The notes under the pieces are model-generated. The model was given only the letters and a program-made list of their open reading frames with translations, had not been told where the DNA came from and made no database searches. A program made the position numbers and the translations under genes. A DNA stretch of 48,906 bases from a virus, in IMG/VR virus record IMGVR_UViG_3300037200_000144, positions 1 to 48,906 of that record, one strand, 5' to 3'. Of the stretch, positions 3,728-40,349 are shown in pieces. Positions within the stretch are counted from its first letter, which is position 1. Each line of letters begins with the position of its first letter.

Positions 3728-4291
3728 ATGTCTGGCGTTTCTAAACGCACTCGTTTTGAAGTCTTCAAGCGCGACAAGTTCACCTGCCAGTACTGCTGGC
3801 GAAAACCGCCCGAGGTAATCCTTGAACCCGATCACGTAATCCCGAGTTGCGACGGCGGTTCGGATCACATGGACAATCTCGTCACAGCCTGCTTTGATTG
3901 TAATCGGGGAAAAGCAGGCGTATCTCTGGATTCTTTGCCGCAAACCATTTCCGACAAGATTGCGCAGAAGCTGGAGCTTACTTTGCAGGTGAAAGCTCTC
4001 GACCGACTTCTTAAGCGCGAACGGAAGCAAGAGGACTGTGATATTCACGAAGTCGGAGTCTTTTGGTACAACCTTTTCATGCAGAAAAAGAATGGCTTTG
4101 TTTTCGGGCCTTCCAGGATTCCATCCATCCGACGTTTCTTGCAATCGCTCCACGTCACCGACTTGACTAGATTCGCGGAAAAAGCGATCCAAAAGAGACC
4201 GCCGCGCAACGACGATGATGAGCAGGCGTTTAGATATTTTTGTGGAATTTGTTGGAATAGAATCAAAGGGAAAAACACTCCGACAACTTAG
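3728..4291 (+). CDS. HNH endonuclease
   Basis: 187 residues. The first 70 residues carry a zinc-binding HNH module: CQYCWRKPP, then EPDHVIPSCDGGSDHMDNLVTAC and DCNRGKAG, giving CxxC...DH...N...CxxC. The remaining helical 110 residues are of unknown role. The ATG at 3728 is preceded by AAGGAGGG at good spacing; a longer in-frame reading from 3557 lacks such a site. Bases 3583-3727 between this gene and the previous one show nothing recognizable. It may be a homing endonuclease or a host/phage DNA nuclease. Confidence 0.8.
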   Translation: MSGVSKRTRFEVFKRDKFTCQYCWRKPPEVILEPDHVIPSCDGGSDHMDNLVTACFDCNRGKAGVSLDSLPQTISDKIAQKLELTLQVKALDRLLKRERKQEDCDIHEVGVFWYNLFMQKKNGFVFGPSRIPSIRRFLQSLHVTDLTRFAEKAIQKRPPRNDDDEQAFRYFCGICWNRIKGKNTPTT

Positions 4292-4388
4292 TCGGGTGAC
4301 CCGTGCCGCATGCGCGATTACGCTAAGCAACGAAAGTTGAGGCGTGCTCCGGGGAAAACTTGCGGCGCGGGGATTTTGAAAGCAAAGA

Positions 4389-4625
4389 ATGACCAACGCC
4401 CGAAAACTTCTGCTGCATCTGTTTCGCGCCCACGGCCCGCAAACCGAGCCGGAGGCGAAATGGTGGTTGACCAAATTCAATCTCACGCGCGGACAAGTGG
4501 CATATGCCCTGCGCTCGTTGCGCCGGGAACGTGTCTTGCTTATGGACGGCGCGAAGGTCGGCCCCCGAGGTCGCCTTGTGAAGCGGTGGGCTTTGGCCCC
4601 GTGCCGTCGCAGCGTCGCCAAGTGA
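4389..4625 (+). CDS. Small winged-helix-like protein
   Basis: 78 basic residues. The pattern WWLTKFNLTRGQVAYALRSLRRERVLLMD is that of a winged helix: a recognition helix followed by a wing with a GPRGRLVKRW strand. A DNA-binding regulator is likely but not proven. It is followed 54 bp later by the Holliday junction resolvase gene. No strong ribosome binding site is seen. Confidence 0.5.
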   Translation: MTNARKLLLHLFRAHGPQTEPEAKWWLTKFNLTRGQVAYALRSLRRERVLLMDGAKVGPRGRLVKRWALAPCRRSVAK

Positions 4626-4679
4626 CCCAGCAATTTGGAATCGAGATGAGAGGAAAACTAAAGAGGCGAGGGCCGCAAA

Positions 4680-5201
4680 ATGAAAATTCTCGGAATTGAT
4701 CCTGGCAAAGACGGCTTTCTCTGTCTGCTGAGCAACGGCGATGCGCCTCAGTTTTGGCCTACGCCCACCGTCCGTATAGGCAAGGGGGCAAGCCAAAAAC
4801 GCGACTATAACGTAGCCGCTATGCGGCGGATCATTATCAATTGCTCGCCCGATTGCGTTGTTTTGGAAAAGCAGCAGGCCATGCAGGGTCCCCATGGCCG
4901 AAAGCAAGGCGTGGCTACGACCGGACAAATTATGTATGGATATGGATTGTGGCTGGGGCTCGTCGCCGGGATCGGGTTGCCGTTGCAGACGTGCCACCCC
5001 CGCACGTGGCAGGCGCTAATTCTGAAGGATGTCCAGGGTGTAGACACCAAGGCCCGGTCGATAATCGCCGCCGGCCGATTGTTCCCGACCGTTGACCTGC
5101 GCGCAACCGATCGTTGCCGCACGCCGCACAACGGAAAAGCCGATGCCTTGCTGCTGGCGTATTGGGGCAAGATTGCCGGAATGTTTTGCGAGGCGCGGTA
5201 G
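4680..5201 (+). CDS. RuvC-like Holliday junction resolvase
   Basis: 173 residues with the RNase H-fold resolvase signature: GIDPGKDG with Asp7, VVLEKQQ with Glu63, and TPHNGKADALLLAYWG with His150 and Asp155, the expected acidic residues plus a catalytic His. Length matches bacterial RuvC and phage relatives. It would resolve branched DNA from recombination or replication before packaging. It sits just upstream (3 bp) of a DNA methyltransferase gene and is probably co-transcribed with it. Confidence 0.85.
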   Translation: MKILGIDPGKDGFLCLLSNGDAPQFWPTPTVRIGKGASQKRDYNVAAMRRIIINCSPDCVVLEKQQAMQGPHGRKQGVATTGQIMYGYGLWLGLVAGIGLPLQTCHPRTWQALILKDVQGVDTKARSIIAAGRLFPTVDLRATDRCRTPHNGKADALLLAYWGKIAGMFCEAR

Positions 5202-5204
5202 GCC

Positions 5205-5945
5205 ATGAATCTCGACAGCTACAAATGGGACTGGGTTTCTCCCGATGGAAATATCAGGTTGGCATGTGCGGACTGTTTACAAGTCTTGCCGACGTTAGAG
5301 GCAGAGAGCGTTCATGCCGTGATAACCGATCCTCCGTATGCCATTCCGACGATTGTTGCCTCTGGCAGAAGCAACACGTCGAACCTTGGCGACCTCAGTT
5401 TGATCGAATCGGCTTTCCGGGGTCTGTTCAACGAATGGCGACGGGTTATCGGAGACGCCGGAAGGACTTTTGTGTTTTGCGATGGGGTTTCATATCCGGT
5501 TCTGTTTCGCGCTGTCTATGGAAAACTAGCAACTGCTCTGCTCGTTTGGGCAAAACTTGGAATCGGCATGGGTCGCGAGTTTCGCAAGTCTCACGAATTG
5601 ATCCTACATGCGTGGGCAGCCAAGACACCCATCTTCTCTGACGGGATTGGACGGGCGGACGTGCTAACTTATCCCATGGTGCCAACAGATGAACGGCAGC
5701 ATCCAGCAGAGAAGCCCGCCGACTTGATTGAAGAATTATTGACGGTTTGTGGGCCTATCGTTTGTGATCCGTTCATGGGATCGGGAACCAGCGGAGTTGC
5801 CTGCGTCCGAACTGGTCGGAAATTCATCGGAATCGAAATCAGCGAGGAGTACTTCGATATCGCCGTCAAGCGAATCGAGGCCGAGTTGAACCGACACCCG
5901 CTCTTGGAGCCGAAGCAACCCACCCAGGGGAGCTTGCTGCCGTGA
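5205..5945 (+). CDS. DNA methyltransferase 1 (amino-methyltransferase, DPPY type); self-target of CRISPR spacer 5
   Basis: 246 residues with motif IV DPPY (residues ~43-46) preceding the SAM-binding motif I DPFMGSGTSG near residue 190, the order of class beta N4-cytosine/N6-adenine methyltransferases. The target-recognition region lies between. It ends FDIAVKRIEAELNRHPLL, an end shared with the next methyltransferase and a remnant at 7188-7292. No restriction enzyme is adjacent, so it is an orphan, probably protecting phage DNA or altering expression. Bases 5245-5283 match CRISPR spacer 5 perfectly, so the gene may be repressed by the phage's own effector. Confidence 0.88.
   Translation: MNLDSYKWDWVSPDGNIRLACADCLQVLPTLEAESVHAVITDPPYAIPTIVASGRSNTSNLGDLSLIESAFRGLFNEWRRVIGDAGRTFVFCDGVSYPVLFRAVYGKLATALLVWAKLGIGMGREFRKSHELILHAWAAKTPIFSDGIGRADVLTYPMVPTDERQHPAEKPADLIEELLTVCGPIVCDPFMGSGTSGVACVRTGRKFIGIEISEEYFDIAVKRIEAELNRHPLLEPKQPTQGSLLP
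5245..5283 (-). promoter_or_regulatory. Self-protospacer of CRISPR spacer 5
   Basis: All 39 bases are the reverse complement of spacer 2471-2509. It begins 40 bp after the methyltransferase start codon. Flanks on the - strand, in spacer orientation, are GGCAAGA on the 5' side and CGGG on the 3' side. If the array is read rightward, the crRNA is antisense to the methyltransferase mRNA. Confidence 0.9.
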
Positions 5946-6003
5946 CCCTCGCCACCCTCCTGCGCGACGCCCGCCATGCCTGCCTGCCCTTGGAACCGAT
6001 ACC

Positions 6004-6714
6004 ATGAAACCCACTTGGGAAACAAACGACGGCGCGATTCGCTTGTACTGCGCTGATTGTCTCGACGTACTGCCGACGCTGGGGCCGGTCGATGCGGTGG
6101 TGACTGACCCGCCTTATGGGATGTCGTTTCAGTCAAATTACCGGAAGGTGGCGCACAGCAAGATTGCCAATGATGACACCGACGAGGCGCTGCTTTGGAC
6201 GTGCGCCCTGCAGCCGAGGCACTCGGCCTATGTGTTCTGCAGGTGGGACAACATTGTTGCCGTTCCAAAGCCTAAATCATTGGTCACATGGGTAAAAAAT
6301 AACTGGTCAATGGGCGATTTAGAACACGAGCACGCGCGCCAGACCGAGGTTGCGTTGTTCTATCCGGGGCCGGAGCATGACTTTCCGAAAGGTCGCCCGA
6401 CCGATGTCATCCGCGCGCCTCGGACTAACAACGAGTTCCACCCAACCGAAAAGCCGGTGCAGCTTATGCGCGTCTTTGTCGATTGGACGCGGGGCACCAT
6501 CCTCGACCCCTTCATGGGCAGCGGCACTACGATTGTCGCGTGCATCAGGACCGGACGCCGGGCGATTGGAATTGAGAGAGAGAAAAAGTATTTCGATATT
6601 GCGGTCGAAAGGTGCAAGCGGGAACTGGAAAGATTCCCGTTGTTCACCGAGGAGAAGCCGCTGAAGCAAGGTGTTTTGCTGCCTGATGAATTTTCAAGTG
6701 AGCAGATCGCGTGA
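6004..6714 (+). CDS. DNA methyltransferase 2 (DPPY type)
   Basis: 236 residues with DPPYGMSF near residue 37 and DPFMGSGTTIVAC near residue 166, the same beta-class order as the neighbour at 5205 but with a different central region, so a different target sequence is likely. The end (FDIAVERCKRELERFPLF...GVLLPDE) is homologous to the methyltransferase remnant at 7188. Its last ~24 codons overlap the 3' end of an opposite-strand HNH gene; the final residues SSEQIA are probably supplied by that inserted DNA. Confidence 0.87.
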   Translation: MKPTWETNDGAIRLYCADCLDVLPTLGPVDAVVTDPPYGMSFQSNYRKVAHSKIANDDTDEALLWTCALQPRHSAYVFCRWDNIVAVPKPKSLVTWVKNNWSMGDLEHEHARQTEVALFYPGPEHDFPKGRPTDVIRAPRTNNEFHPTEKPVQLMRVFVDWTRGTILDPFMGSGTTIVACIRTGRRAIGIEREKKYFDIAVERCKRELERFPLFTEEKPLKQGVLLPDEFSSEQIA

Positions 6715-7207
6715 GGCATTGAAGGTTATCACGGTCGTCGTTCAACGAATCAAAATCGCCGTGATGAATGACACATCCCCTAGGCACAGGTCCGAAATGA
6801 GATTCCCAGACAAACACAGAACGAGCCTTCCACGTTCGCGGTTCAGCCGTCTTGACGTAGGCTCGCATCGCGCCTTGTTTGTCTGGGCGAATCCGAACCG
6901 TGCCTACCGGAACCTTGCGATTCGATTCGCAGCCCTTCTTGAACTCGGAACCGGGCGAAAGGTGAATTCCCTTTTTGCCTCTATTCCATGCCTTACTGCC
7001 GGGCTTGAAAGCGTTGGAGGGCGGCAACCCCTCCCGTCGCTTATTGCCTTTCATGGCCGCGCTGACAACGGTAGGCAATCGTTTTTTGGCATGCCAAGAC
7101 CCGCCGCACTTGAACGAACAAAACCGGGCCGTCTTAGCCCGGTAGGCTTTCACCTGGAAAACGCCGCCGCAGACTTCGCATGTTTTTGACTTCGATATCG
7201 CCGTCAA
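6644..7207 (-). CDS. HNH homing endonuclease inserted in the methyltransferase region
   Basis: Read on the - strand. The N-terminal part has a CEVCGG...FCSFKCGG zinc module, then a basic NUMOD-like region. The HNH module at the C-terminal side includes VPRGCVIHHGDFDSLNDDRDNLQCLTR followed by HLKIHQ. No ATG precedes the zinc module near its expected start. TTG at 7207 is used here; the frame stays open to an ATG at 7369, but that part is antisense to the methyltransferase remnant. Its last residues are antisense to the end of methyltransferase 2. Single opposite-strand gene, typical of a selfish homing insertion. Confidence 0.75.
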   Translation of the reverse strand: MTAISKSKTCEVCGGVFQVKAYRAKTARFCSFKCGGSWHAKKRLPTVVSAAMKGNKRREGLPPSNAFKPGSKAWNRGKKGIHLSPGSEFKKGCESNRKVPVGTVRIRPDKQGAMRAYVKTAEPRTWKARSVFVWESHFGPVPRGCVIHHGDFDSLNDDRDNLQCLTRSAHLKIHQAAKHLASAASPR

Positions 7208-18169: not shown

Positions 18170-18742
18170 ATGATCACCTTTAGGCGGGAAGAAAATGGTG
18201 ACGTAACGGTCACGATTGAAGGCGAAGGAGAAGTCCGCCACCACGTCGAAACGATCCCAAGCTATGCCAGCAGCTTCAGCCTCGCGGAAAAAGGCGTCCG
18301 GGAAAAGAACCAGCCAATGGAGGATCTGGGCGTCAAGCAGCTAACTCGCGGCCGGGACCAAGCCAATGAGGATTTGCAGCGGGAACTCAGGGGCCTCATG
18401 AGTTGCCATTCGCAAGATGGCGCAGAGGCTTTGAAAGACGCCGCGCGCAGCAAGGCCCAATACTCGCGGGGGTTGGAGTATATCGACGTCCTCCGCGACC
18501 AACTCAAGGGGCAGGCATCAAGGCCGAACACCACCAAGAAACAGAAAATGAAAACCAAGAAAATGAAAACGCTAAAGATCAATCTAAATCCGCCCTCGCC
18601 AACGGTCTGCCCGAACTGCCGGGATGACAAGGAGTCTGCGTTGGTCGACTCAATTATCCTTATCGCGAAAACACTGGACACCACCTGCCCGCAACTTTGT
18701 TGGTGCGAGCATTGCAGGGTGTTTTTCTGTTATCAGCCTTGA
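18170..18742 (+). CDS. Chimeric protein containing a copied tape-measure segment and a zinc ribbon
   Basis: 190 residues. Residues ~1-30 are a beta strand peptide (MITFRREENGDVTVTIEGEGE). Residues ~31-115 are encoded by DNA (18259-18514) nearly identical to 31975-32230 inside the tape measure gene. A Lys-rich linker and C-terminal CPNC...CEHC putative zinc ribbon follow. The central copy is clearly a duplication. The mosaic may be functional or a by-product. Confidence 0.6.
   Translation: MITFRREENGDVTVTIEGEGEVRHHVETIPSYASSFSLAEKGVREKNQPMEDLGVKQLTRGRDQANEDLQRELRGLMSCHSQDGAEALKDAARSKAQYSRGLEYIDVLRDQLKGQASRPNTTKKQKMKTKKMKTLKINLNPPSPTVCPNCRDDKESALVDSIILIAKTLDTTCPQLCWCEHCRVFFCYQP
18259..18514 (+). 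repeat. 256-bp dispersed duplication (copy A)
   Basis: Co-linear, near-identical to 31975-32230 13.7 kb away, with a few substitutions and no length change; both copies are in frame in their genes. Confidence 0.95.
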
Positions 18743-20856: not shown

Positions 20857-20893
20857 GCCATGTAGCGGCTACATCGTTACATGGCCTTTTTTT
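20857..20893 (+). terminator. Rho-independent terminator before the portal gene
   Basis: Stem GCCATGTA (20857-20864) / TACATGGC (20878-20885), 13-base loop, then TTTTTTT (20887-20893); an AAAA run precedes the left arm. It separates the fibre block from the head genes. The rest of 20724-20856 shows no gene. Confidence 0.85.
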
Positions 20894-20931
20894 CGTTCTT
20901 GCTCTGCGGTCTTTTCTCAATCGCGCCCATG

Positions 20932-23900
20932 ATTCCGGCTCTGCAATCCATAACGGCTTTCTTCTCCCGGCCCAAAGTTGCCTCGGTAGCCCCGATGCCC
21001 TCACCATCGGCTGACGAGGAAATCCGCGCACTGTCCAAGCAAGTCAAGGCGCACCGCAAGGATCGCAAGAAGCTCCAGCTTCGCAACCGTCTGGCCCGCG
21101 AGCGCAGTCTGTTGATCAAGCTGGAAAACTACGGCGTTCCGATCGAACGACAGTTTGACCGGCAGCAATCGCAAATCCAGCGGCACAGTCCGAAGTCCCT
21201 CACGGTCCACGAACCGGCCTATGCGACCGATCCGGCAACAGGCTATCCATTCCTGCAAACTACTGAGGCATGGGATGTAAAGCCGGGCAACAAGCACCGG
21301 ACGCGATTCGAGCAAGATCCTCTGTTCGGCTGGGGCGTGAATCAATTCGCCTTCGGATTCGATCGACTTGGCGACCTGTCAACGAATGTTCCCACCGGCA
21401 GCTTCCCAAGGGAACTGTTCCCTGAGCGGCCCACAACCCTTCGGACGCAGATTGCTCAGGACGCCATGCGTTTTCAATCTCGGGCGTGGTTTGAGACGCA
21501 TCCGCAGTACGCCGGCGCTTGCGGGCACCTGGTCAACTATACGATCGGCACCGGTCTGACTTTCGACGTTGTTAGCGACGTGGACAAGCAGCTTGCGCAG
21601 GATGTGATGGATTACCTCACGGAGTTCGCCAAGTACCGCTGGAACAACCTCGCGAAGCGCCCCAGGCAAACGGCCCTAAACATCCTCCGCGACGGCGAGG
21701 ATGCCTTGCGAATCGTGCCGAGTGACGGCGAGTACCCGGAGATTCGCGTCATTGATACCTCTTGGATTCGCGGCCCGCACAACGAAATCACGGGCCCATG
21801 GTCTATGGGCGTTCTGACCTCCTGGCCGAAGTGCTATGACGATGTGCGCGCCTACAACGTCTGGTATCCGGACAACACGCAAGAGAATATTTCCCCGTTC
21901 ACGATGAGTCTTGCCAAAGCGGCGACGATCGGCAGCAACGTCAAACGCGGCATCCCCCTGAGTTACAAGATTCGCAAGCAGTTGCCGCAAATCTCCAACC
22001 TGGTGGATTGCATGGCCATCGGGGAAGCGGCTCGGCAAAGCATCCCCTATATCCAGCAATACAATCTCGCGGACAAGTCAGCCGTGGGCGCCGCCCTGCG
22101 AGCGAATGAATCGAATGCTGCGCCCCCCGAACTATACGGCGATGGGTACGGGTATGGCATGGGCTACGGAGCATGGGATCGAGACGGCATCCGGCCCGGC
22201 GAAGTACGGCACATCAACAAGGGACAGATATTCGAGGGACCGCCGGACGCGCCAGGATTCGCGGTCTCAGGGCCCGCCGTCTATCGCACGCTCTGCGAAT
22301 CGTGCGCCTGCGCCACGAACACGCCTATCTGGTTTTGGACCGGCAGCGCCGACGCGGAGAACTATTCTTCCTCTCTGGTGAGCGAAAGCCCGGTCGTCAA
22401 GGAGATTCAAACGCTGCAAGATGAAGTCACGGTCCACTACAAATTCCTCCTTACGGCCGCCGTAATGATCGGCGCTTCGGAAGGACGCTTCCCCGCGAAC
22501 GTCCTGCAAATCGTGCAAGTTCACGTCACGCTGCCGACCCCGGTGGCCCGCAACCGCAAGGACGAAGTGGAGACGGACCTGAAGCTGCTCGACAAACGCC
22601 TGCTCGCCCCCCAACAGGTCTGCAAGCGCAACGACATTGATTTTCAGGAGGCCCAGGAGTTGATAGATCAGGCCGAAGCGGACGGCTGGACCAATCAAAT
22701 GGGAGTCACCCAGGGCGAGCGGCCGGCGGGTCAAGAGGGGCCGGAAGGAGAAGAGCCGGCGAAAACGGGCAACGAACCGAAGCGGCTTGAGCAGCTTTCC
22801 GATCGGCTGGACGCGGCTCTTGCACGATTCGAGACGTGGGAAGAATCGAAGCACCCACGAGGTCAGCCCGATAACCCCGGACAGTTTGGATCGAGCGGCG
22901 AAGGGGCTTCGGAATCCGAAAATGCCAAGACCAAAGAATCGGGATCCGAACCTATGAAACGTCCGGCACAAGCCAAGGGCGAATCGACGGCCGCGAAGCG
23001 AGAGGGAGCGGGCAAGAATGCCAAGGTGCTGCTTGCCGACGGCAGCGAAGCACCCGCCCACATTACGCCGGCCATGATTCCTCCGGCCTGGAAAGACGTG
23101 CAAGTGTTCACCGATCCTGATTCAGAAATCTACGTCAAAGCCAAGGACGCCAAGGGCCAGAGCAAGACGGTATACAAGCCGAGCTACGAGGCCAGTCAAC
23201 AGGCAGCGAAGTACGTGCGAATCAAGATGATGCTGGCAGAAGGAGCCGAGATAAGCGACCAGATTCAAAGCGCCCGCAAGCAAGAGAAGTTCCGTGATGT
23301 GGCCGATTGCGCGTGGCTCATCAACGAGCAGGCCACGCGCCCCGGCAGCGAAGCCGACACGAACGGCCTGGCCGAGCATTACGGAAAAGCGATGAGCGCG
23401 GAGAACGTGATCATTACGCCGGCCAAAGGCAAAGGCCCCGCAAAAGTCGCGTTGAAATTCGGTGACAAGATTATCCCGGTCAAGGACTCCGGCACGGCCG
23501 CGGAGATTCGGCGGCGCATGGACGCCGGCGAGTCTTTGGAGGATTCGACGTTCTGGCTGAAGTCCCATGGCGCAACAACACTTGAGGATCGGCACGTCGT
23601 CCAGACGGAGGAAGGCACGCGCCTGCAATTCGTCGGCAAGGAAGGCGTATGGCACGATCACCTTATTGGCGATCCGAAGCTGGCCGAGATGTTGACCGAG
23701 CGTGCAAAGAAGGGCGGCAAGTTGTTCGGCGTTTCCAATTCTCAGTTGTCGAGCTTCACAAAGTCGCTTGATCACGGGCGGTTTTCGCCGAAGGACTTTC
23801 GCACGAAGCGGGCCAACGAATTGGCCGTTGCGGAAATCAAGAAGATTGGCGAAGACGCGCCGACATCGGACGAAGAGCGCAAGTCGCGGATTCGCAAGGT

Positions 23901-23997
23901 GGCCGAAGTGGTCAGCGACAAACTCGGCAATCGCTGGCAACAGGCGGTCGAGTCCTATATCAATCCGGCCGTGTGGAGTGTGTGGGGCGGCGCATGA
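20932..23997 (+). CDS. Portal protein fused to type IB DNA topoisomerase
   Basis: 1021 residues. Residues ~90-620 have portal features: KLENYGVPIERQF, TQIAQDAMRFQSRAW, NILRDGEDALRIVP, WIRGPHNEITGPWSMGVL, GQIFEGPPDAPGF, and the helical barrel region KRLLAPQQVCKRNDIDFQEAQ. A linker with KHPRGQPDNPGQFG (~640) leads to a complete TopIB-like domain from ~695: PPAWKDVQVF, ATRPGSE (Arg803), GKEGVWHD (Lys903), SPKDFRT (Arg957) and LGNRWQQAVESYINP (Tyr1009); the usual catalytic His is Asn. The frame opens at 20881, but that ATG lies in the terminator hairpin, so 20932 is used. TopIB relaxes supercoils through a 3'-phosphotyrosine; at the portal it could relieve torsion during DNA entry or exit (inference). 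Confidence 0.8.
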   Translation: MPALQSITAFFSRPKVASVAPMPSPSADEEIRALSKQVKAHRKDRKKLQLRNRLARERSLLIKLENYGVPIERQFDRQQSQIQRHSPKSLTVHEPAYATDPATGYPFLQTTEAWDVKPGNKHRTRFEQDPLFGWGVNQFAFGFDRLGDLSTNVPTGSFPRELFPERPTTLRTQIAQDAMRFQSRAWFETHPQYAGACGHLVNYTIGTGLTFDVVSDVDKQLAQDVMDYLTEFAKYRWNNLAKRPRQTALNILRDGEDALRIVPSDGEYPEIRVIDTSWIRGPHNEITGPWSMGVLTSWPKCYDDVRAYNVWYPDNTQENISPFTMSLAKAATIGSNVKRGIPLSYKIRKQLPQISNLVDCMAIGEAARQSIPYIQQYNLADKSAVGAALRANESNAAPPELYGDGYGYGMGYGAWDRDGIRPGEVRHINKGQIFEGPPDAPGFAVSGPAVYRTLCESCACATNTPIWFWTGSADAENYSSSLVSESPVVKEIQTLQDEVTVHYKFLLTAAVMIGASEGRFPANVLQIVQVHVTLPTPVARNRKDEVETDLKLLDKRLLAPQQVCKRNDIDFQEAQELIDQAEADGWTNQMGVTQGERPAGQEGPEGEEPAKTGNEPKRLEQLSDRLDAALARFETWEESKHPRGQPDNPGQFGSSGEGASESENAKTKESGSEPMKRPAQAKGESTAAKREGAGKNAKVLLADGSEAPAHITPAMIPPAWKDVQVFTDPDSEIYVKAKDAKGQSKTVYKPSYEASQQAAKYVRIKMMLAEGAEISDQIQSARKQEKFRDVADCAWLINEQATRPGSEADTNGLAEHYGKAMSAENVIITPAKGKGPAKVALKFGDKIIPVKDSGTAAEIRRRMDAGESLEDSTFWLKSHGATTLEDRHVVQTEEGTRLQFVGKEGVWHDHLIGDPKLAEMLTERAKKGGKLFGVSNSQLSSFTKSLDHGRFSPKDFRTKRANELAVAEIKKIGEDAPTSDEERKSRIRKVAEVVSDKLGNRWQQAVESYINPAVWSVWGGA

Positions 23998-24170
23998 CCG
24001 TATTTGATCTGGACAGCGAAGTTTTCGTTGGCGACGAGCAAGAAACATCGATCGATGTCGCACAAGAGGAAGCCAATACCCAGGATCAGGATCAGGACGA
24101 TGATCCGGAAACCAGCGAAGCCGAGAAAGCCAGAATTTGGCGATTGCTGGGGATGAGCCCTCACGAATAA
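23994..24170 (+). CDS. Small acidic protein
   Basis: 58 residues, rich in Asp and Glu (NTQDQDQDDDPETSEAEK) with a C-terminal helix ARIWRLLGM. Start overlaps the portal stop (ATGA). Possible scaffold or head-assembly helper. Confidence 0.55.
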   Translation: MTVFDLDSEVFVGDEQETSIDVAQEEANTQDQDQDDDPETSEAEKARIWRLLGMSPHE

Positions 24171-24190
24171 GGGGATTTGTAGCAAATCGC

Positions 24191-25309
24191 GTGAACACAA
24201 ACCCATACAAGTCGACTTGTCCTATTTGCGGACAACCCGCGGTAAGACGATGCAGGTGTATGGGGCCGCACACGCAAGAGGATGTTGACAGAGGGCACGG
24301 AACGAGTTGCCCGAATGGGCATCGCTGGAGCGGCGACATTATTGCTTCTAAAGACAAATCACGAATGGAGCAGACCATGATCGATGACACCGAAATGAAC
24401 GCCGACGACTACACGGCGCAATCGCTTCACTCCGCGCTTGACGCCTGCCTGGCGGAAGACACCGAGGGCCATGAGAAGGCCAAGAAAATGGCCAAACTCA
24501 TCAAGGCCATGCACGAAGGAAAGGAACGTGCCGTCGATGGCGGCAATGCGGATGAAACGCCGGAGCAGAAGAAGGAGCGCGAAGATAAGGAGAAGGCCAC
24601 TCGCGAGGAGCAACTTCGCAACACCTTCACAGAGCGCATGGAGCAAACGGCCACACTCGCCGAGCCTCAGATTGATCGTGAGCGCGGCATCCTGAAGCAT
24701 GTCCACATCGCAGGCATGGTCAGCCGAACGGATGGGGCCCGCTATCGCATGGAAGGTCACCGCAAGGCTTCCCCGCGATTCGAGCAAATGCCCGTGGGCC
24801 TTGACCACGATTACTCCGGCGCGCCCATGAAAGTCGGCCAGGCGTGGGGCATTCTCTCCAACATCACGCTGGAGACCGATGGACCCTACGGCGATCTGGC
24901 CTATCTCAAGTCTCATGAGCGCACCGAGCAAGTGCTCGAAGACGCCGAGCGGAAGACGGGAATATTCTCGCTGTCGATGGTCGCCAAGACGCGCGGCCGC
25001 GATCCATTGGACATTGAGGAGTACATTCCGTCCCGCGTGGATTTGGTCGTCAGGGGCGCAACGACACGAACCCTGTTCAACCAGGAGCATCCTGCCGTGA
25101 GCAAGGAGCAGTACGACGCGCTGGCCGCCCGATTCGAGCAACTCGCCGCGAAGTGCGACGCCTTGGAAAAGCGCCTTGACATCAAGGAGAAGTTCGTCAC
25201 CCCGCAAGCGCGGCTTGAGCAGGAAATCGAGCGCGTCGAAAAGACCGTAGCGGCGACCATCGACCTCAGGAAGTTTTGGGACACGAGCATCCCAGCGGGA
25301 AAAAGCTGA
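24191..25309 (+). CDS. Prohead maturation protease with zinc ribbon and scaffold-like tail
   Basis: 372 residues from GTG 24191. Residues ~9-50 form a zinc module (CPICGQPAVRRCRCMG...CPNGHRW). A charged helical stretch follows. The protease part (~165-300) has the herpes assemblin-type layout: GLDHDYSGAPMKVGQAWGI with His206, then GIFSLSMV with Ser260/Ser262, and VDLVVRGATTRTLF. The C-terminal ~80 residues are coiled coil (YDALAARFEQLAAKCDALEKRL), as in protease-scaffold fusions. Position between portal and capsid genes fits. Confidence 0.75.
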   Translation: MNTNPYKSTCPICGQPAVRRCRCMGPHTQEDVDRGHGTSCPNGHRWSGDIIASKDKSRMEQTMIDDTEMNADDYTAQSLHSALDACLAEDTEGHEKAKKMAKLIKAMHEGKERAVDGGNADETPEQKKEREDKEKATREEQLRNTFTERMEQTATLAEPQIDRERGILKHVHIAGMVSRTDGARYRMEGHRKASPRFEQMPVGLDHDYSGAPMKVGQAWGILSNITLETDGPYGDLAYLKSHERTEQVLEDAERKTGIFSLSMVAKTRGRDPLDIEEYIPSRVDLVVRGATTRTLFNQEHPAVSKEQYDALAARFEQLAAKCDALEKRLDIKEKFVTPQARLEQEIERVEKTVAATIDLRKFWDTSIPAGKS

Positions 25310-26068: not shown

Positions 26069-27634
26069 ATGGCTACCGCGCTTCAGCAACTCAAGCTCAA
26101 GCAGCTTTTCGATAAGACGATGCCCAGTGGCGGACCAAAAGCATTTCGCGCCGCTTTCGAGGAATCCGTTGGCCTGCGCTACCGCGAAACCCAGGCGATC
26201 AACGAGGAAGGCGACATCAGCGGCACGCGCCACGAGCAGTATTACGATGCCGAAACCGACCTCTTCCGCGACAATCATCGCGCGGACCGCGAGAAGGACG
26301 GGACCGGCCATTGGCATATCGGGGAAGTCTTCAGCGCGATTTGCGGCCCCCAATGGAAGAAGAAGTTCGAGCAATGCTGGAAATCGGCGGCCCAATCTCG
26401 CTTCGAGGCTTTCGGCGGCACGATGATGCCCGGCGACACGCCTTACGTTTCGGCGGCGCTGGACGTGGTGGCCGGCTTGCTCAACGCCCGCGCCCTGGCC
26501 CGCGCCAAGGATCCCGAATGGATTTGGGACAAGGTGACGAACGTACAAGAGGCGACGGGCGAAGGCGGATTCCATATCGGCTCGCGGCTCGATCCATCCA
26601 ACTTCGATGGCAGCGGCACAGACTTGGCGCGCGGACAGAGTTTGCCGACGACAAAGCTCCTTTCGACGCGCGTCCATCGCAATCGCACGCATGATCAAGG
26701 ACGGCGCGCGGAGGTCGATTATTGGACGATGCGCGATGATCTCACTGGGCAAGTCATGGAGTCGATCGACCAGGTGAGCTTGATCGTCTTGGCTGAGCGC
26801 GAAAGAAAAGTCGCGGATGGCACGATGGGCGTTGCCAGCGGCACGACGTTTCCCGGCGGAGCCAATATCGGAATCCCCGGCCAGTTGCTGCCACAGGTCC
26901 AGGACGGCATGGCCTGGTTCCCGTGGCAAAAGGGCACCTACGTCACCAACGGCAGCGCCGGAGGGAACGCCGGATCAACGACTGCCGCCCCGGAGAATCA
27001 AGCGTACATCGCCAATTACGCCAACTGTGGCGATGGTGACGGACTGGGCCTGACGAACTACATTTTCGTGCCGACCGCCCTGCAAATTCTTTCGTCGAAT
27101 CTGGACCCGTTCACCCAATTGCCGACGCAAGTTTCCATGCAGGGCATGCAATTCATCGTCGCCCCGGCCGTGGCCGTGCAATTGAAGGTGCTTCTGGAGC
27201 AGGAAGCCATCTGGCAAATCGCTTGGGGCACCGCGACGCCCGGATCGTTTTCTAATGTTACCCAGAGCCGCGCCAATGTGGTCAAGGAACTCGGCCTGGA
27301 CATCATTCCATCCATGTTCTGGGCGAATCGCGCGATCAATGTCGGCCTGGCAACTCAGTCGGCCGCCGGAAGCATCGGCAGCGTGACTGGGCAGACGAAG
27401 CTGACCAACAACGCGGGCGATTCCTTCAACACGGCCGGCAGCATCATGTCGGCCTACTGGATGGGCCATTTCAAGGACGCCACGATCTATTGGCAGCGCG
27501 ATCCGTATCACACGGAAGGCGTCCCTCTCGGATCGGTCGAGATGGGCGCTCGCATCGTCTTGATCCAGGACCATCGGGAGATGGGCCAATTATTCTGGCA
27601 TAATCCGCGCGTGTGCTGGCGTTCCTGGAGCTGA
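26069..27634 (+). CDS. Major capsid protein
   Basis: 521 residues following the protease/scaffold and decoration genes, with a strong site AAGGAGAAAAAT before ATG. N-terminal charged helices (LKLKQLFDKTMP...ESVGLRYRETQ) could be the scaffold-like or N-arm part. The central beta/alpha core includes YIFVPTALQILSSNLDP and GMQFIVAPAVAVQL; a loop DPYHTEGVPLGSVEMGARIVLIQDHREMG near the end is typical of capsid P-domain closure. Assigned mainly by position, size and expected expression. Confidence 0.75.
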   Translation: MATALQQLKLKQLFDKTMPSGGPKAFRAAFEESVGLRYRETQAINEEGDISGTRHEQYYDAETDLFRDNHRADREKDGTGHWHIGEVFSAICGPQWKKKFEQCWKSAAQSRFEAFGGTMMPGDTPYVSAALDVVAGLLNARALARAKDPEWIWDKVTNVQEATGEGGFHIGSRLDPSNFDGSGTDLARGQSLPTTKLLSTRVHRNRTHDQGRRAEVDYWTMRDDLTGQVMESIDQVSLIVLAERERKVADGTMGVASGTTFPGGANIGIPGQLLPQVQDGMAWFPWQKGTYVTNGSAGGNAGSTTAAPENQAYIANYANCGDGDGLGLTNYIFVPTALQILSSNLDPFTQLPTQVSMQGMQFIVAPAVAVQLKVLLEQEAIWQIAWGTATPGSFSNVTQSRANVVKELGLDIIPSMFWANRAINVGLATQSAAGSIGSVTGQTKLTNNAGDSFNTAGSIMSAYWMGHFKDATIYWQRDPYHTEGVPLGSVEMGARIVLIQDHREMGQLFWHNPRVCWRSWS

Positions 27635-31200: not shown

Positions 31201-31508
31201 TCCCCGGCAAGCATTGGCTGATTTGGTACTGCGAGTCGCCGCTTGACGTCGCGCTGTACCGGGATTTGCTCGCGGAGCAAGGCCTGACGCCGTGGCAAGT
31301 CAACAACCTTTTTACGCTGTCGCAACTTTCGGCGCTCTTCAGCACAGGCTATACTTGGGAGGAATTCGGTTCGATGGCCGACGCCAATCAGGACGTGCTC
31401 AGCAGGGCCCGCAAGCAAATGGACGCGGCGCGAAAGGCCAGACGAGAGAATCGATCGCAATCCAAGAGGCAGCGCCCCTATCATCTGCCGGCGAGAGGTA
31501 AGCGTTGA
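30730..31508 (+). CDS. Tail assembly chaperone GT fusion by -1 frameshift
   Basis: A -1 slip on T TTT TTT (31182-31188) joins the G frame to the -1 frame, which is open from there to 31508 and encodes SASVVPGKHWLIWYCESPLD then WQVNNLFTLSQLSALF and a basic tail. The fused product is 259 residues. This is the classic G/GT arrangement of long-tailed phages. The -1 part has no good start codon of its own near the junction, supporting the frameshift. Confidence 0.8.
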
Positions 31509-32527
31509 TGCCCAAAACAATTGACGACTTGATCGATGCCGTCGACAGGGTTACGGCGGCAGTGCTGAACTCCTCCGGTACAGGCGGAGGAGGCGGCGGA
31601 GGAGGCGGCGGAAGAAAGCCGCCAAAAGCTGCGCCCGGCGGCTTTGCCGATCTTACTTCCAAACTCAAAGGATTCGCAATGGCGCTCTTTGGCGCGGGGG
31701 CCGTCTTGAAGGGATTGAGCGGCACGCGCGAAGGCTATCATTTGGACTATGCGATCAATCACATTTTCTTTGAGATGGCGGACGCCCTGCGCGGCCCCAT
31801 TCGGTTCATTACGAACGAGCTGGAGGGACTTGCTCGGGTCATTCGTGCCGTGAGCAGGTCGGGAGAAGGCGCTGAGACAAATATCGTCGGCACTCTGACT
31901 AGTCCGCGGCGGGCCGCGGATAAATCGATCGCGATAGACCAGGAGAACCTGCGGACGCGCGAGGCCGAACAGCAAAGCTATGCCAGCAGCTTCAGCCTCG
32001 CGGAAAAAGGCGTCCGGGAAAAGAACCAGCCAATGGAGGATCTGGGCGTCAAGCAGCTAACTCGCGGCCGGGACCAAGCCAATGCGGATTATCAGCGGGA
32101 ACTCAGGGGCCTCACGAGGGGCCGTTCGCCAGATGGCGAAGAGGCTTTGAAAGACGCCGCGCGCAGCAAGGACCAATACGCGCGGGGGTTGGAGCATATC
32201 GGCGTCCTCCGCGACCAACTCAAGGGGCAGCCGGCCCAGAAAATGCCCGGACCTTTGCAGCGGCCGGAAGCCGCTCCAGGCATGAAGCCATCAAAGGCCG
32301 ATGAACATCTCCAGCCAATCATGCACGTTTCTTTCGGCGACGTGGCCGGTCTCCAGGGTAAGCTGCAGGCGCTGGCCAGCGAGAACCCTGCACAGGAACG
32401 CGGCTTGAGCCTCGTTGAGAACTGCTATAATATGCTCGTGCGTATTTACAACAAGTTGTCGGTAGGGGACAGCATGACGGAGATTCCGGACCCGAGCGTA
32501 AAAAATGGAGTCAAGAACGATCGATAA
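31508..32527 (+). CDS. Short tape measure protein
   Basis: 339 residues, start overlapping the GT stop. Gly-run (10 Gly) near residue 30, a hydrophobic patch (FAMALFGAGAVLKGL), then long helices. Family members span the tail at roughly 0.15 nm per residue, so the tail would be about 50 nm (inference). Residues ~157-240 are encoded by the segment duplicated at 18259. Confidence 0.65.
   Translation: MPKTIDDLIDAVDRVTAAVLNSSGTGGGGGGGGGGRKPPKAAPGGFADLTSKLKGFAMALFGAGAVLKGLSGTREGYHLDYAINHIFFEMADALRGPIRFITNELEGLARVIRAVSRSGEGAETNIVGTLTSPRRAADKSIAIDQENLRTREAEQQSYASSFSLAEKGVREKNQPMEDLGVKQLTRGRDQANADYQRELRGLTRGRSPDGEEALKDAARSKDQYARGLEHIGVLRDQLKGQPAQKMPGPLQRPEAAPGMKPSKADEHLQPIMHVSFGDVAGLQGKLQALASENPAQERGLSLVENCYNMLVRIYNKLSVGDSMTEIPDPSVKNGVKNDR
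31975..32230 (+). repeat. 256-bp dispersed duplication (copy B)
   Basis: Near-identical partner of 18259-18514; this copy, inside the tape measure gene, is probably the source. Confidence 0.95.
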
Positions 32528-35987: not shown

Positions 35988-36586
35988 CGAAACCGAAAAG
36001 CAAGATTCCACGCTCCTTGCGCCTGGAATGGCGAACGCCGGCCGAGTTGACGGACAATCCCGAAAACTGGCGGACGCACCCCACCGCGCAAACCGAGGGC
36101 CTTGCCGCCGTGATTGGGCAAGTCGGATGGGCCGGGGCCGCGCTCTACAACGAGCGAACCAAGCGATTGATCGATGGCCACGCCCGAAAGCACCTTCCGG
36201 ATGAATTGCTTGTCGATGGAAAAATGCCCGTGCTGGTAGGCAATTGGACGGAAGAGCAAGAGCGGATGATCCTGCTGACACTCGACCCGCTGGCAGCATT
36301 AGCGGAGGCCGACAACGACATCCTGGGCAAGCTCCTGCTGGCGAGCCAAAGCGAAGATGCGGCCGTTCAGGCGCTCTTTGATGGGCTGGCGGAGGAGAAC
36401 GTGATTGACATCTTCGCGGATGGCGAGGAACTCCCCAACATCAACGAAACGACTCGCCACACCGTTGTCGTTCCGTACAATGATGGTGACATTCCGATTT
36501 TACAGAAATTTTTGGAAGTCGACGAACTGCCGGATCGACTTGGAAAGGCGATCATTGAGCGAATTAAAGCAATCGCTGCGGCTTGA
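35984..36586 (+). CDS. ParB-like nuclease-domain protein
   Basis: 200 residues. TPAELTDNPENWRTHP...GLAAVIGQVGWAGAALYNE, then LIDGHARKHL and MPVLVGNWTEEQERMILLTLDP, the ParB N-terminal (CTP-binding/Spo0J-like) fold as found in phage DNA-modification and packaging clusters. No HTH is obvious. Coupled to the Mom-like gene that overlaps its end. Confidence 0.8.
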   Translation: MTKPKSKIPRSLRLEWRTPAELTDNPENWRTHPTAQTEGLAAVIGQVGWAGAALYNERTKRLIDGHARKHLPDELLVDGKMPVLVGNWTEEQERMILLTLDPLAALAEADNDILGKLLLASQSEDAAVQALFDGLAEENVIDIFADGEELPNINETTRHTVVVPYNDGDIPILQKFLEVDELPDRLGKAIIERIKAIAAA

Positions 36587-37343
36587 GAAAATCGCCAATA
36601 TCGAGGCGGCCGCACTACTGAACGCAAAGCACCCCTTGGGCAGCGGCCACTCGTTCGCGTTCTCTCTAGGCGTGTTCTGGCGAGACCATTGCGAAGGCGT
36701 CTTGACCTTCGGCTGTCCAATCAGCAATAACGCCGTAAAACGCTATGGGCTAAGACAATGCGATTCCCTAGAGCTTCGAAAATTTTGGATAAGCGACGTG
36801 CCGCCGAAGAACTCGGAAAGTCGAATTCTCGCTATTGCGGCCAGGATCATTCGCAAGCGGTATCCGCAATTGTGGCTCCTGCTGACGTACTGCGCAGGCG
36901 ACGAAGCCGCATCAGCCTACAAGGCGGCGGGCTGGATTCCATGCGAGGCACACCAATACGTCCGCGAAGTAAAAATCAACGGTCGATGGCTGAGCGTGCG
37001 CAATGCAAATAGGCTGGGCGTGACGAAGCAGGCCGCGGAGAAGAAAAGCGAGAATCGGCGGAAATTCGTTCTTCCGCTGACGGCCGCCGCGGCTCAACTG
37101 ATTGCGGCGAAGAGCGAGCGTTCCGCCGGCATAGCGGCAAAGACAATTGGAACTTCGACAGCGAATAATCCCAGCCTGCCCAAGACGGGCACGGGCTCGA
37201 TCGACCTGACATTTGCCAGCACCCAAGCGAAGTCGCCCGGATCGCCCCCGCAACAGGCCGCGGATTCGTCGCCCGCCACGAAACGCCGGCAGTCCACCAA
37301 ATCCACCAAGGCCACGGCAACGCCCGTAGGATCGGAGTCATGA
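36555..37343 (+). CDS. Mom-like GNAT-fold DNA modification protein
   Basis: 262 residues from TTG 36555 (GAAAGG 6 bp upstream). Residues ~20-140 follow the Mu Mom layout: GSGHSFAFSLGVFWRDHCEGVLTFGCP, then CDSLELRKFWISDVPPKNSESRIL, then WLLLTYCAGDEAASAYKAAGWIP. Mom modifies adenine N6 in phage DNA to evade restriction. The last ~100 residues are low-complexity and run antisense over the ASCH gene. Pairing with a ParB-like gene is recurrent in phages. Confidence 0.7.
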   Translation: MSELKQSLRLEKIANIEAAALLNAKHPLGSGHSFAFSLGVFWRDHCEGVLTFGCPISNNAVKRYGLRQCDSLELRKFWISDVPPKNSESRILAIAARIIRKRYPQLWLLLTYCAGDEAASAYKAAGWIPCEAHQYVREVKINGRWLSVRNANRLGVTKQAAEKKSENRRKFVLPLTAAAAQLIAAKSERSAGIAAKTIGTSTANNPSLPKTGTGSIDLTFASTQAKSPGSPPQQAADSSPATKRRQSTKSTKATATPVGSES

Positions 37344-38436: not shown

Positions 38437-38997
38437 ATGTCCAAAAAATCAAAAAAACAGAGGCTGTTTACAACGCCCATCGTGGAGAAACCCCCTCATG
38501 TGGGGGAAGTTCCGGGAAGTGATTCGGCCAAGCAGGTTCAATTTCTGGCCGCATACGCGATCTTGGGGGCGGTCGGCAAAGCAGCAAAGGCGGCCGGCTG
38601 TGATCGCCGCAGCCATATCTATTGGCTCGCCAACGATGCCGACTACCCGGCCCGCTTTGCCGACGCCCAGGCCACGGCAAATGAGGCCCTGGAAATTGAA
38701 TGCCGTCGTCGGGCGGAGCGGGGTGTAGAGCGGATGAAATTTTACAAGGGCGAGCCGATCATGGATCCGCGAACCGGCAAGCCCTACATTGAGCATGAAT
38801 ACTCGGATACGCTTCTCGCCATGCTGCTCAAGGCCCACCTTCCGGACAAATATGTTGATCGGGTTGAGCAAAAGAACATCGACGGCGGACAGGATTTGCC
38901 CGAGGCCACGAAGGAAATTATGAGCAATGCGGAAGTCCGAAAAGCCCTCCTTGCGGCCGAGCGTGAGGCAGAAGACAAGCGCACGGCCGATCCATGA
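38437..38997 (+). CDS. Terminase small subunit
   Basis: 186 residues with an N-terminal HTH-like segment (FLAAYAILGAVGKAAKAAGCDRRSHIYWLAND...YPARFADA), then a helical region and GVERMKFYKGEPIMD. Precedes the large subunit with ATGA overlap. Recognizes the packaging site, which is not identified here. Confidence 0.75.
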   Translation: MSKKSKKQRLFTTPIVEKPPHVGEVPGSDSAKQVQFLAAYAILGAVGKAAKAAGCDRRSHIYWLANDADYPARFADAQATANEALEIECRRRAERGVERMKFYKGEPIMDPRTGKPYIEHEYSDTLLAMLLKAHLPDKYVDRVEQKNIDGGQDLPEATKEIMSNAEVRKALLAAEREAEDKRTADP

Positions 38998-40349
38998 GCA
39001 TCATCCATCATCCGTTTCTATTGCCCTCGACCCTGGCGCGGACCTACTATCCCGATTGGGTCTATCCACGGCATATCGAACGATTCCAGGAGGCCGCATT
39101 AGAACTCGTCTGGGGCCATCTCTATCGCTTGCTCGTATCTATCCCGGTACGTCACGGCAAGTCAGCGTTTTGGAGCGTGGTCTTACCGGCCTGGCACGTT
39201 CTGAACAAGCCGGACGATCTTGTGTTGATTGCTTCCTCGGGCAGCGATCTCGCCGAAGAATTCTCCAAGCAGGCGCTGGAGATTGTCCGCGAGGCCGCGC
39301 CGATCATCGGCCTGGAGATTGATCCGAATTGGCAGGCCCGAGGATCTTGGAGATTGCGCGGGCACCGTGGGGGCGTGGAAGCGGCCGGCGCCGGAACTCA
39401 GGTCAACGGCCGCGGATTCGGCTTGGCTATCGGGGACGATCTCACGAAAGACGAGGAAGCGGCAAGGTCTCCTTCAATGCGATCAAGCCTGATGAATTGG
39501 ATTCACGGCGACTTGATCCGTCGAATGGAGCCTGATGGACGAATCGCGTTCATTATGTCGAGGAAGCATTTGGAGGATCCGATCGGCCAAATGCTCAAAA
39601 TGAACGCCGAACTGCCGGCGCGTTTGAAGTGGCAGCAGATTCTTTTTAAGGCCATCGACGACGATGGCCGCGCCCTCTGGCCGGAGCGTTACCCGATTGA
39701 TGTTCTCCTGGGAGCCAAACGCGAATTGGAAGTTGCCCGCAAGTCTCATTTTTGGTCGAGCATGTACCAACAGAATCCGCGCAGCGATCCGGCCGCTTGC
39801 GAATGGCCCGACCCCTACTTCACCGATATTTTCTTCACTGCGATTCCGCCGAACATAACTCCCCGGCTGAAAATCGTTTGCTGCGATCCGAGCAAGAGCA
39901 GCAAGAGCAAGGCGGGTGACTACTCGGCCGTCTTAACTTTAATTCTCGACAACTCAGGCACGCTCTGGGTAGCTGATGCCTGGCTCTGGCAATGCCCGCT
40001 ATCGGAATGTGTCGAGCAGTTCGCGGCCACGATCATTCGAGAGAGGCCGCAAGCCGCGATCATTGAAACTATGCTTGGGGCCGAGCTTGCCATTATGGAC
40101 GCGCAGCGCTTGCTCGATGCCGCCGACAATCGCACTCCACTCTATCCATATAATTCCATGGAAAATAAGAACGTTAGAATCCGCGTGGCGCTGACGGGCT
40201 GGCTTGCAAAGGCACGCCTGAAAGTCTGCGATACCGTAGGCGGCCGGCTTGGCGTGGGGCAAATGATGGAGTTTCCCAGCGCCGAGCACGACGATTTTCC
40301 GGACGCACTGGCCCAGGGCATTAGCCTGATGGATGCGTTGCTGGGTTGA
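38994..40349 (+). CDS. Terminase large subunit
   Basis: 451 residues. Walker A variant PVRHGKSAFW at ~51-60, Walker B region GLAIGDDLTKDEEA near 145, coupling motif IMSRKH near 185, and RNase H-type nuclease: VCCDPSKSSKSKAGDYSAV (~300), AAIIETMLGAE (~360) and EHDDFPDALAQ (~435). It drives DNA packaging and cuts concatemers. Complete. Confidence 0.9.
   Translation: MSIIHHPFLLPSTLARTYYPDWVYPRHIERFQEAALELVWGHLYRLLVSIPVRHGKSAFWSVVLPAWHVLNKPDDLVLIASSGSDLAEEFSKQALEIVREAAPIIGLEIDPNWQARGSWRLRGHRGGVEAAGAGTQVNGRGFGLAIGDDLTKDEEAARSPSMRSSLMNWIHGDLIRRMEPDGRIAFIMSRKHLEDPIGQMLKMNAELPARLKWQQILFKAIDDDGRALWPERYPIDVLLGAKRELEVARKSHFWSSMYQQNPRSDPAACEWPDPYFTDIFFTAIPPNITPRLKIVCCDPSKSSKSKAGDYSAVLTLILDNSGTLWVADAWLWQCPLSECVEQFAATIIRERPQAAIIETMLGAELAIMDAQRLLDAADNRTPLYPYNSMENKNVRIRVALTGWLAKARLKVCDTVGGRLGVGQMMEFPSAEHDDFPDALAQGISLMDALLG

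Follow-up and report, generated by a model that had tools for sequence, protein, structure and literature searches.

A diverged lambda-type portal protein joined to a predicted topoisomerase IB, a probable virion cargo of environmental phages

Introduction

Why would a phage join a DNA topoisomerase, in one reading frame, to the portal protein of its head? The question is raised by an IMG/VR virus record of 48,906 bases, the whole of which was analyzed and is called the window here. The original prediction, made from the DNA letters of this window, was that one of its genes encodes a portal protein fused to a complete type IB topoisomerase (TopIB). The in-frame fusion of the two was borne out by the analysis reported here, the portal part via a distant profile match, the position of the gene and the relatives of the protein. 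We consider it probable that the protein is a diverged lambda-type portal that bears an active TopIB at its C-terminus as virion cargo, acting on the phage DNA at entry.

One gene, one reading frame

The gene is listed with its parts and neighbors in Table 1. A missed stop codon or a frameshift between the two halves, either of which would have spoken against a fusion, was looked for in 20881-23997 and none was found. Translation could start at ATG 20881, at the next in-frame ATG (20929) or at a later one; at neither of the first two is a clear ribosome site seen. Position 20932, where the gene had been thought to start, is the codon right after ATG 20929 and not a start, the frame being the same. 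In the present numbering all residues are shifted by 17, the former Arg803, Lys903, Arg957 and Tyr1009 being R820, K920, R974 and Y1026. An internal start yielding a free TopIB was considered and rejected: ATG 22954 lies ahead of the domain, but a good ribosome site was not seen upstream of it and the methionine is not conserved.

Table 1. Features of the portal-TopIB gene and of nearby genes in the window
Feature	Position	Strand	Basis
Portal-TopIB fusion gene, 1038 aa	20881..23997	+	One uninterrupted frame, 1038 codons, no internal stops
Portal half (predicted), residues 1-656	20881..22848	+	Distant lambda-portal profile match, gene position, relatives
Conserved lambda-portal segment, residues 435-600	22183-22680	+	Profile match, C-terminal third of portal core only
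Linker/tag HPRGQPDNPGQF, residues 658-669	22852..22887	+	Sole copy found in the window
Topoisomerase IB (predicted), residues 700-1038	22978..23994	+	Pfam PF01028, AF2 model, VIA-align
TopIB lobes: N-terminal DNA-binding lobe, about 700-770; catalytic domain, about 775-1038	within 22978..23994	+	
Catalytic Arg820 (poxvirus Arg130 position)	23338..23340	+	Invariant 11/11; aligns with Arg of archaeal Top1 6z01
Catalytic Lys920 (poxvirus Lys167 position)	23638..23640	+	Invariant; aligns with GK of 2f4q
KDFR: Lys971 and Arg974 (poxvirus Lys220 and Arg223 positions)	23791..23802	+	Both invariant, aligned with known TopIBs
Asn1017 (poxvirus His265 position)	23929..23931	+	Invariant Asn; Asn in active bacterial TopIB (PMC2666729)
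Nucleophile Tyr1026	23956..23958	+	Invariant within SYI/TYI; aligns with 2f4q and variola TopIB
Candidate head maturation protease/scaffold (start codon uncertain)	24137..25309	+	Position
Candidate major capsid protein	26069..27634	+	Size and position only
Terminase large subunit	38994..40349	+	phrog_38, E 9e-70; 15 kb downstream

The topoisomerase domain

Pfam finds Topoisom_I (PF01028) at residues 894-1012 (E 1.3e-8, 34.9 bits versus a curated cut-off of 23.7), and the closest solved structure by sequence is the TopIB of D. radiodurans (2f4q; E 1.7e-9, by family profile E 4e-23). An AlphaFold2 (AF2) model built with 11 sequences has a pLDDT of about 80 over residues 700-1038 and was compared with known structures by VIA-align. 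It resembles most closely the variola topoisomerase 3igc (Z 17.8, 261 residues aligned, rmsd 3.9), followed by the D. radiodurans enzyme 3m4a (Z 17.6) and human Top1 (Z 16.1); for the N-terminal lobe (residues 700-770) the match to vaccinia 1vcc is a modest one that lies inside the full-length match (Z 6.1, rmsd 2.3, 63 residues). Structure prediction, which had been named as a check of the original prediction, has thus revealed the TopIB fold. Because the model aligns to known TopIBs including their N-terminal lobe, residues 700-1038 as modelled are a complete TopIB of the poxvirus/bacterial type.

The six residues R820, K920, K971, R974, N1017 and Y1026 are invariant among the 11 aligned proteins. 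The catalytic order Arg-Lys-Arg-Tyr that had been read from the window is intact, and the KDFRT and SYINP motifs and the HPRGQPDNPGQF linker are all present as stated. What did not hold is that an asparagine in place of the usual histidine is odd. It is ordinary in bacterial TopIBs: the P. aeruginosa enzyme, which relaxes supercoiled DNA, has Asn-283 and that of D. radiodurans has Asn-280, which rules out Asn1017 as a mark of inactivity (PMC2666729). Judged by its residues, the enzyme is apparently active.

The portal half

No family of Pfam, PHROG or NCBIfam matches the N-terminal half of the window protein. Searches with this half gave one chance-level match among phage records (E 5) and none among plasmid records, and searches of IMG/VR with the portal, capsid and terminase of the window found no close relatives; the AF2 model of the half has a pLDDT under 50. 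Its relationship became visible with a profile made from six lambda-type portals of isolated phages and six relatives of the window protein. In hmmsearch the half scored 24.7 bits against this lambda-portal profile (E 8e-8 in a set of 202 sequences), the best of 200 shuffles reaching 3.0, and in hhalign it matched the 12-portal profile with a probability of 92.6 and a score of 60, the best of 50 shuffles scoring 27.8. The hhalign probability is 5 with the six relatives alone and rises to 92.6 when the six isolated-phage portals are added. From the profile match and from the fused relatives described below we conclude that the N-terminal half is, by its sequence, a very diverged portal of the lambda family.

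Recurrence of the fusion

Pattern scans of IMG/VR with TopIB alignments revealed at least six distinct single-frame portal-TopIB fusions besides that of the window: L008/L009, L011-L015/L017 (one protein on six contigs), L016, L018, L019 and L029/L033. Five of them (L008, L011, L016, L018 and L019) were scanned with Pfam. For L011, L016, L018 and L019 the matches to Phage_portal_2 (PF05136; E 2.5e-28 to 2.5e-32) and to Topoisom_I both exceed the cut-offs; L008 exceeds that of Topoisom_I, and its portal-family match (E 1.6e-6) is below the curated cut-off. The model of L019 matches in one chain a portal (lambda prohead portal 8xot, Z 14.9 for residues 55-429, the pLDDT being modest in that half) and a TopIB (2f4q, Z 14.9); over their alignment, L033 and L019 share 66% identity. 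The dN/dS of both halves is low (about 0.04 and about 0.05). Two pattern scans of prokaryote genomes by a method that detects near-exact peptides only found no relative of the phage TopIBs. Several environmental phages thus have the same join, which makes it probable that the enzyme is present within the virus particles.

Related TopIBs are also found off the portal. In L001/L010, L006/L021 and L020 the TopIB is a separate gene that opens with a tag-like linker (the start codon in L006 being uncertain), preceded by genes with MuF, portal, ADP-ribosyltransferase (ART), kinase or acetyltransferase matches, and in L002/L005 it lies inside a protein with a weak metallopeptidase match. The MuF-domain protein of L021 (7-4194) may hold an intein just past the MuF match (PF14890, E 6e-5, below the curated cut-off).

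A tree was made of 19 TopIBs, in which the phage copies are set apart as a supported group of their own (99/99); plasmid-borne bacterial TopIBs are about 24% identical. The window TopIB groups with those of L001 and L006 (84/97), both unfused, and the remaining fused copies stand apart (96/100). A single clade of all fused copies is rejected (AU p 0.014), and therefore the fusion probably arose at least twice. Repeated fusion is the simplest reading of the sequences; one fusion followed by later losses is an alternative that the tree also allows.

The junction

Between the two halves of the window protein lies the HPRGQPDNPGQF linker, which corresponds in position and class to the HPR....GKF tags found in other fusions of a portal with a cargo domain. 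The junctions of its relatives read HPRGNKDNAGEF, HPRDKDGKF, HPRADDGKF, HKRADDGKF and similar. In Pseudomonas phage Orimi01 a portal (residues 70-526, E 1e-115) is followed by HPRSDDGKF and by a match to an Alt-like ADP-ribosyltransferase (residues 542-639, E 2.6e-5), and a portal fragment of a Helicobacter prophage has HPRAENGQF and then another C-terminal domain, which may be nuclease-like.

Tags that occur repeatedly within one phage were found in L020 (GNPYHDxEGHFT, six copies), L021 (GHPFRGNQW, six copies) and L004 (NPNHDEHGRF), the proteins concerned having ART, kinase, acetyltransferase or MuF matches as well. A blind scan of DNA for GHPFRGNQW, in which domains were disregarded, gave 92 stretches and 131 open frames, a single frame having up to seven tags (L068). 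The families among 57 GHPFRGNQW proteins include portal, MuF/minor head, head maturation protease, ART-PolyVal and ADPrib_exo_Tox as well as Zeta toxin, HipA-like kinase, RelA/SpoT, GNAT and Top1B_N. Xanthomonas phage Rb1 has GHPFRGNQH in a protein annotated as 'internal head protein'. The repeated tag (GHPFRGNQW, GNPYHDxEGHFT, NPNHDEHGRF and kin) sits between the domains of phage head-region proteins (L020, L021, L004, L034, L050-L140) and is near-identical inside one phage and different between phages. Its distribution is what one might expect of a signal that addresses head cargo or marks it for processing, and the single-copy tag of the window resembles the repeated tags in its letters and its position. 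No paper on the repeated tag was found with the motif strings.

The portal-TopIB genes of L029 and L033 (both 3889-7032) differ by 9.2% before and by 1.7% beyond a break that lies around the tag (5923), somewhere from 5870 to 5991; such a break was reached by none of 300 codon shuffles, and the identity drops again just beyond the end of the gene. Because the divergence falls around the tag, this single pair suggests that tag and TopIB are exchanged as a cassette by recombination.

A topoisomerase as virion cargo

Portals are dodecamers, and the P22 portal reaches with its C-terminus into the virion (PMC5290284). A TopIB at the C-terminus would therefore be located within the head, in up to twelve copies. 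Fusions that join portal or MuF proteins to effectors are known and presumed to be injected (PMC5512222; PMC9503650; PMC5576092), and vaccinia Top1 is present in virions (PMC6336343); because of these two precedents we favor a TopIB carried in the particle. Since the same TopIB exists off the portal and similar tags join head proteins to unrelated enzymes, cargo is the simplest reading.

We propose the following sequence of events. The portal C-terminus, pointing into the head as in known portals, would bear the TopIB, and assembly of the portal would place up to twelve copies inside each head, attached via the tag-like linker behind which similar phages put ADP-ribosyltransferases, kinases and acetyltransferases. 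The portal would be one of several carriers of this cargo. Because the portal remains in the particle, the fused enzyme would have to be cut loose in order to enter the cell. Most likely, the TopIB is delivered with the phage DNA, or acts on it, as infection starts; needing no ATP, it could relax the incoming or newly circularised genome and so favor early transcription and replication.

A second explanation, which we regard as possible but rather unlikely, is that the enzyme works in place: up to twelve TopIB domains around the inner mouth of the portal would serve as a torsion swivel during packaging or ejection. The portal C-terminus lies inside the head next to the DNA (PMC5290284), the active site is conserved, and the join to the portal is covalent and probably arose in at least two fusion events, all of which would suit a swivel. 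Against it speak the related phages that have the same TopIB unfused or within other proteins, and the similar linker that ties portals to ART and other domains without a torsional role. Moreover, packaged DNA, being linear, may be able to turn at its free end. If true, the swivel would be the first case of a topoisomerase that forms part of a viral channel for DNA packaging or ejection.

It is improbable, though conceivable, that the delivered TopIB acts mainly on the host chromosome or, via supercoiling, on a DNA-sensing defence rather than on the phage genome. What points to the host is the company the enzyme keeps, namely the predicted host-directed effectors (ART, kinase, GNAT and metallopeptidase) in related phages and the Zeta-toxin and RelA/SpoT domains behind a similar tag, but with about twelve enzyme molecules per infection, a whole chromosome would probably be little changed.

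TopIBs become linked to DNA covalently via a 3'-phosphotyrosine, and the predicted location of the domain beside the DNA path could also suit a clamp that binds DNA or a DNA end, covalently or not, and relaxes nothing. We think this very improbable, since both lysines, both arginines and all other catalytic residues are kept in 11 of 11 proteins, as full cleavage and religation need. An artefact of assembly or annotation, for which the absence of any database family match to the portal half of the window could be cited, is rejected almost with certainty, the frame being free of stops and the identical architecture recurring in independent contigs of about a dozen other samples with both halves matched.

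Relation to known systems

The nearest counterparts of a virion-borne TopIB are the portal/MuF-effector fusions and polyvalent proteins of phages, in which a head protein also carries a C-terminal enzyme predicted to be packaged and injected (Iyer et al., 2017, PMC5512222; PMC9503650). Known partners in portal/MuF fusions are PBECR (an RNase), 2H and InPase (PMC5512222), portals are also known with Nudix, and ARTs occur with head-associated or portal proteins (PMC5512222; PMC9503650). These modify proteins or nucleotides, whereas the enzyme here changes DNA topology; a TopIB fused to a portal was not found in what either paper says. By its Pfam match, its portal profile and the terminase gene the window represents a tailed phage in which an enzyme domain is joined to a structural protein of the head. 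A polyvalent protein combines at least two enzymatic domains of disparate activity in a single polypeptide; since Pfam finds a single cargo domain in the window protein, the strict label does not apply.

The TopIB of poxviruses (vaccinia/variola Top1) shares the two-lobe fold, the size and the active-site positions, and it is carried in the virus particle (PMC6336343), but it is free-standing, has His rather than Asn at one position and is not tied to a portal. The bacterial TopIBs of D. radiodurans (2f4q/3m4a) and P. aeruginosa share the fold and the active-site Asn, and the former is the closest solved relative by sequence; they are stand-alone enzymes of bacteria, whereas the phage copies form their own group. 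A phage-encoded enzyme of the same catalytic superfamily (PMC7824862) is listed among replication/topology genes, and a fusion to a head protein is not mentioned. The lambda-family portals (PF05136; 8xot) are matched strongly by the relatives of the window protein in sequence and fold; lambda's portal is without an enzyme domain, and that of the window is too diverged for Pfam.

Among open-licence papers no report of a portal-TopIB fusion was found. What is new is a DNA topology enzyme as cargo, by which DNA topology would be added to the functions that seem to be packed into phage heads; portal-effector fusions are already known. With a portal-attached topoisomerase, the importance of DNA torsion for packaging, for ejection or for the earliest stage of infection, its first minutes, could be tested directly by genetics. 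Of still wider interest may be the repeated tag: should it prove to be an address label, it could serve to predict unknown virion-delivered proteins and to load chosen proteins into phage heads.

Neighboring genes and other features of the window

In lambda-family phages the portal gene is followed by those for protease, decoration protein and capsid. Gene sizes and gene order near the window portal resemble those of L012, L019 and L033, the neighbors themselves matching weakly or not at all. The product of the gene next to the fusion, a candidate protease/scaffold, has a weak hhalign match to the gene at the same place in the relatives (E 0.011, probability 3.9), and that of the candidate capsid gene matches neither any family nor the gene at the same place in L012.

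Elsewhere in the window, two ORFs 13 kb apart (18170-18742 and 31505-32527) have a nearly identical stretch in common (YASSFSLAEKGVREKNQPMEDLGVKQLTRGRDQAN...) and so represent a partial duplication. The adjacent ORFs 5205-5945 and 6004-6714 match the same part of the DNA methyltransferase family phrog_67, which points to a tandem duplication or a rearranged gene. A Mom-like DNA modification protein is encoded at 36405-37343 (phrog_1384, E 1e-22), which suggests that the DNA of the window phage contains modified bases.
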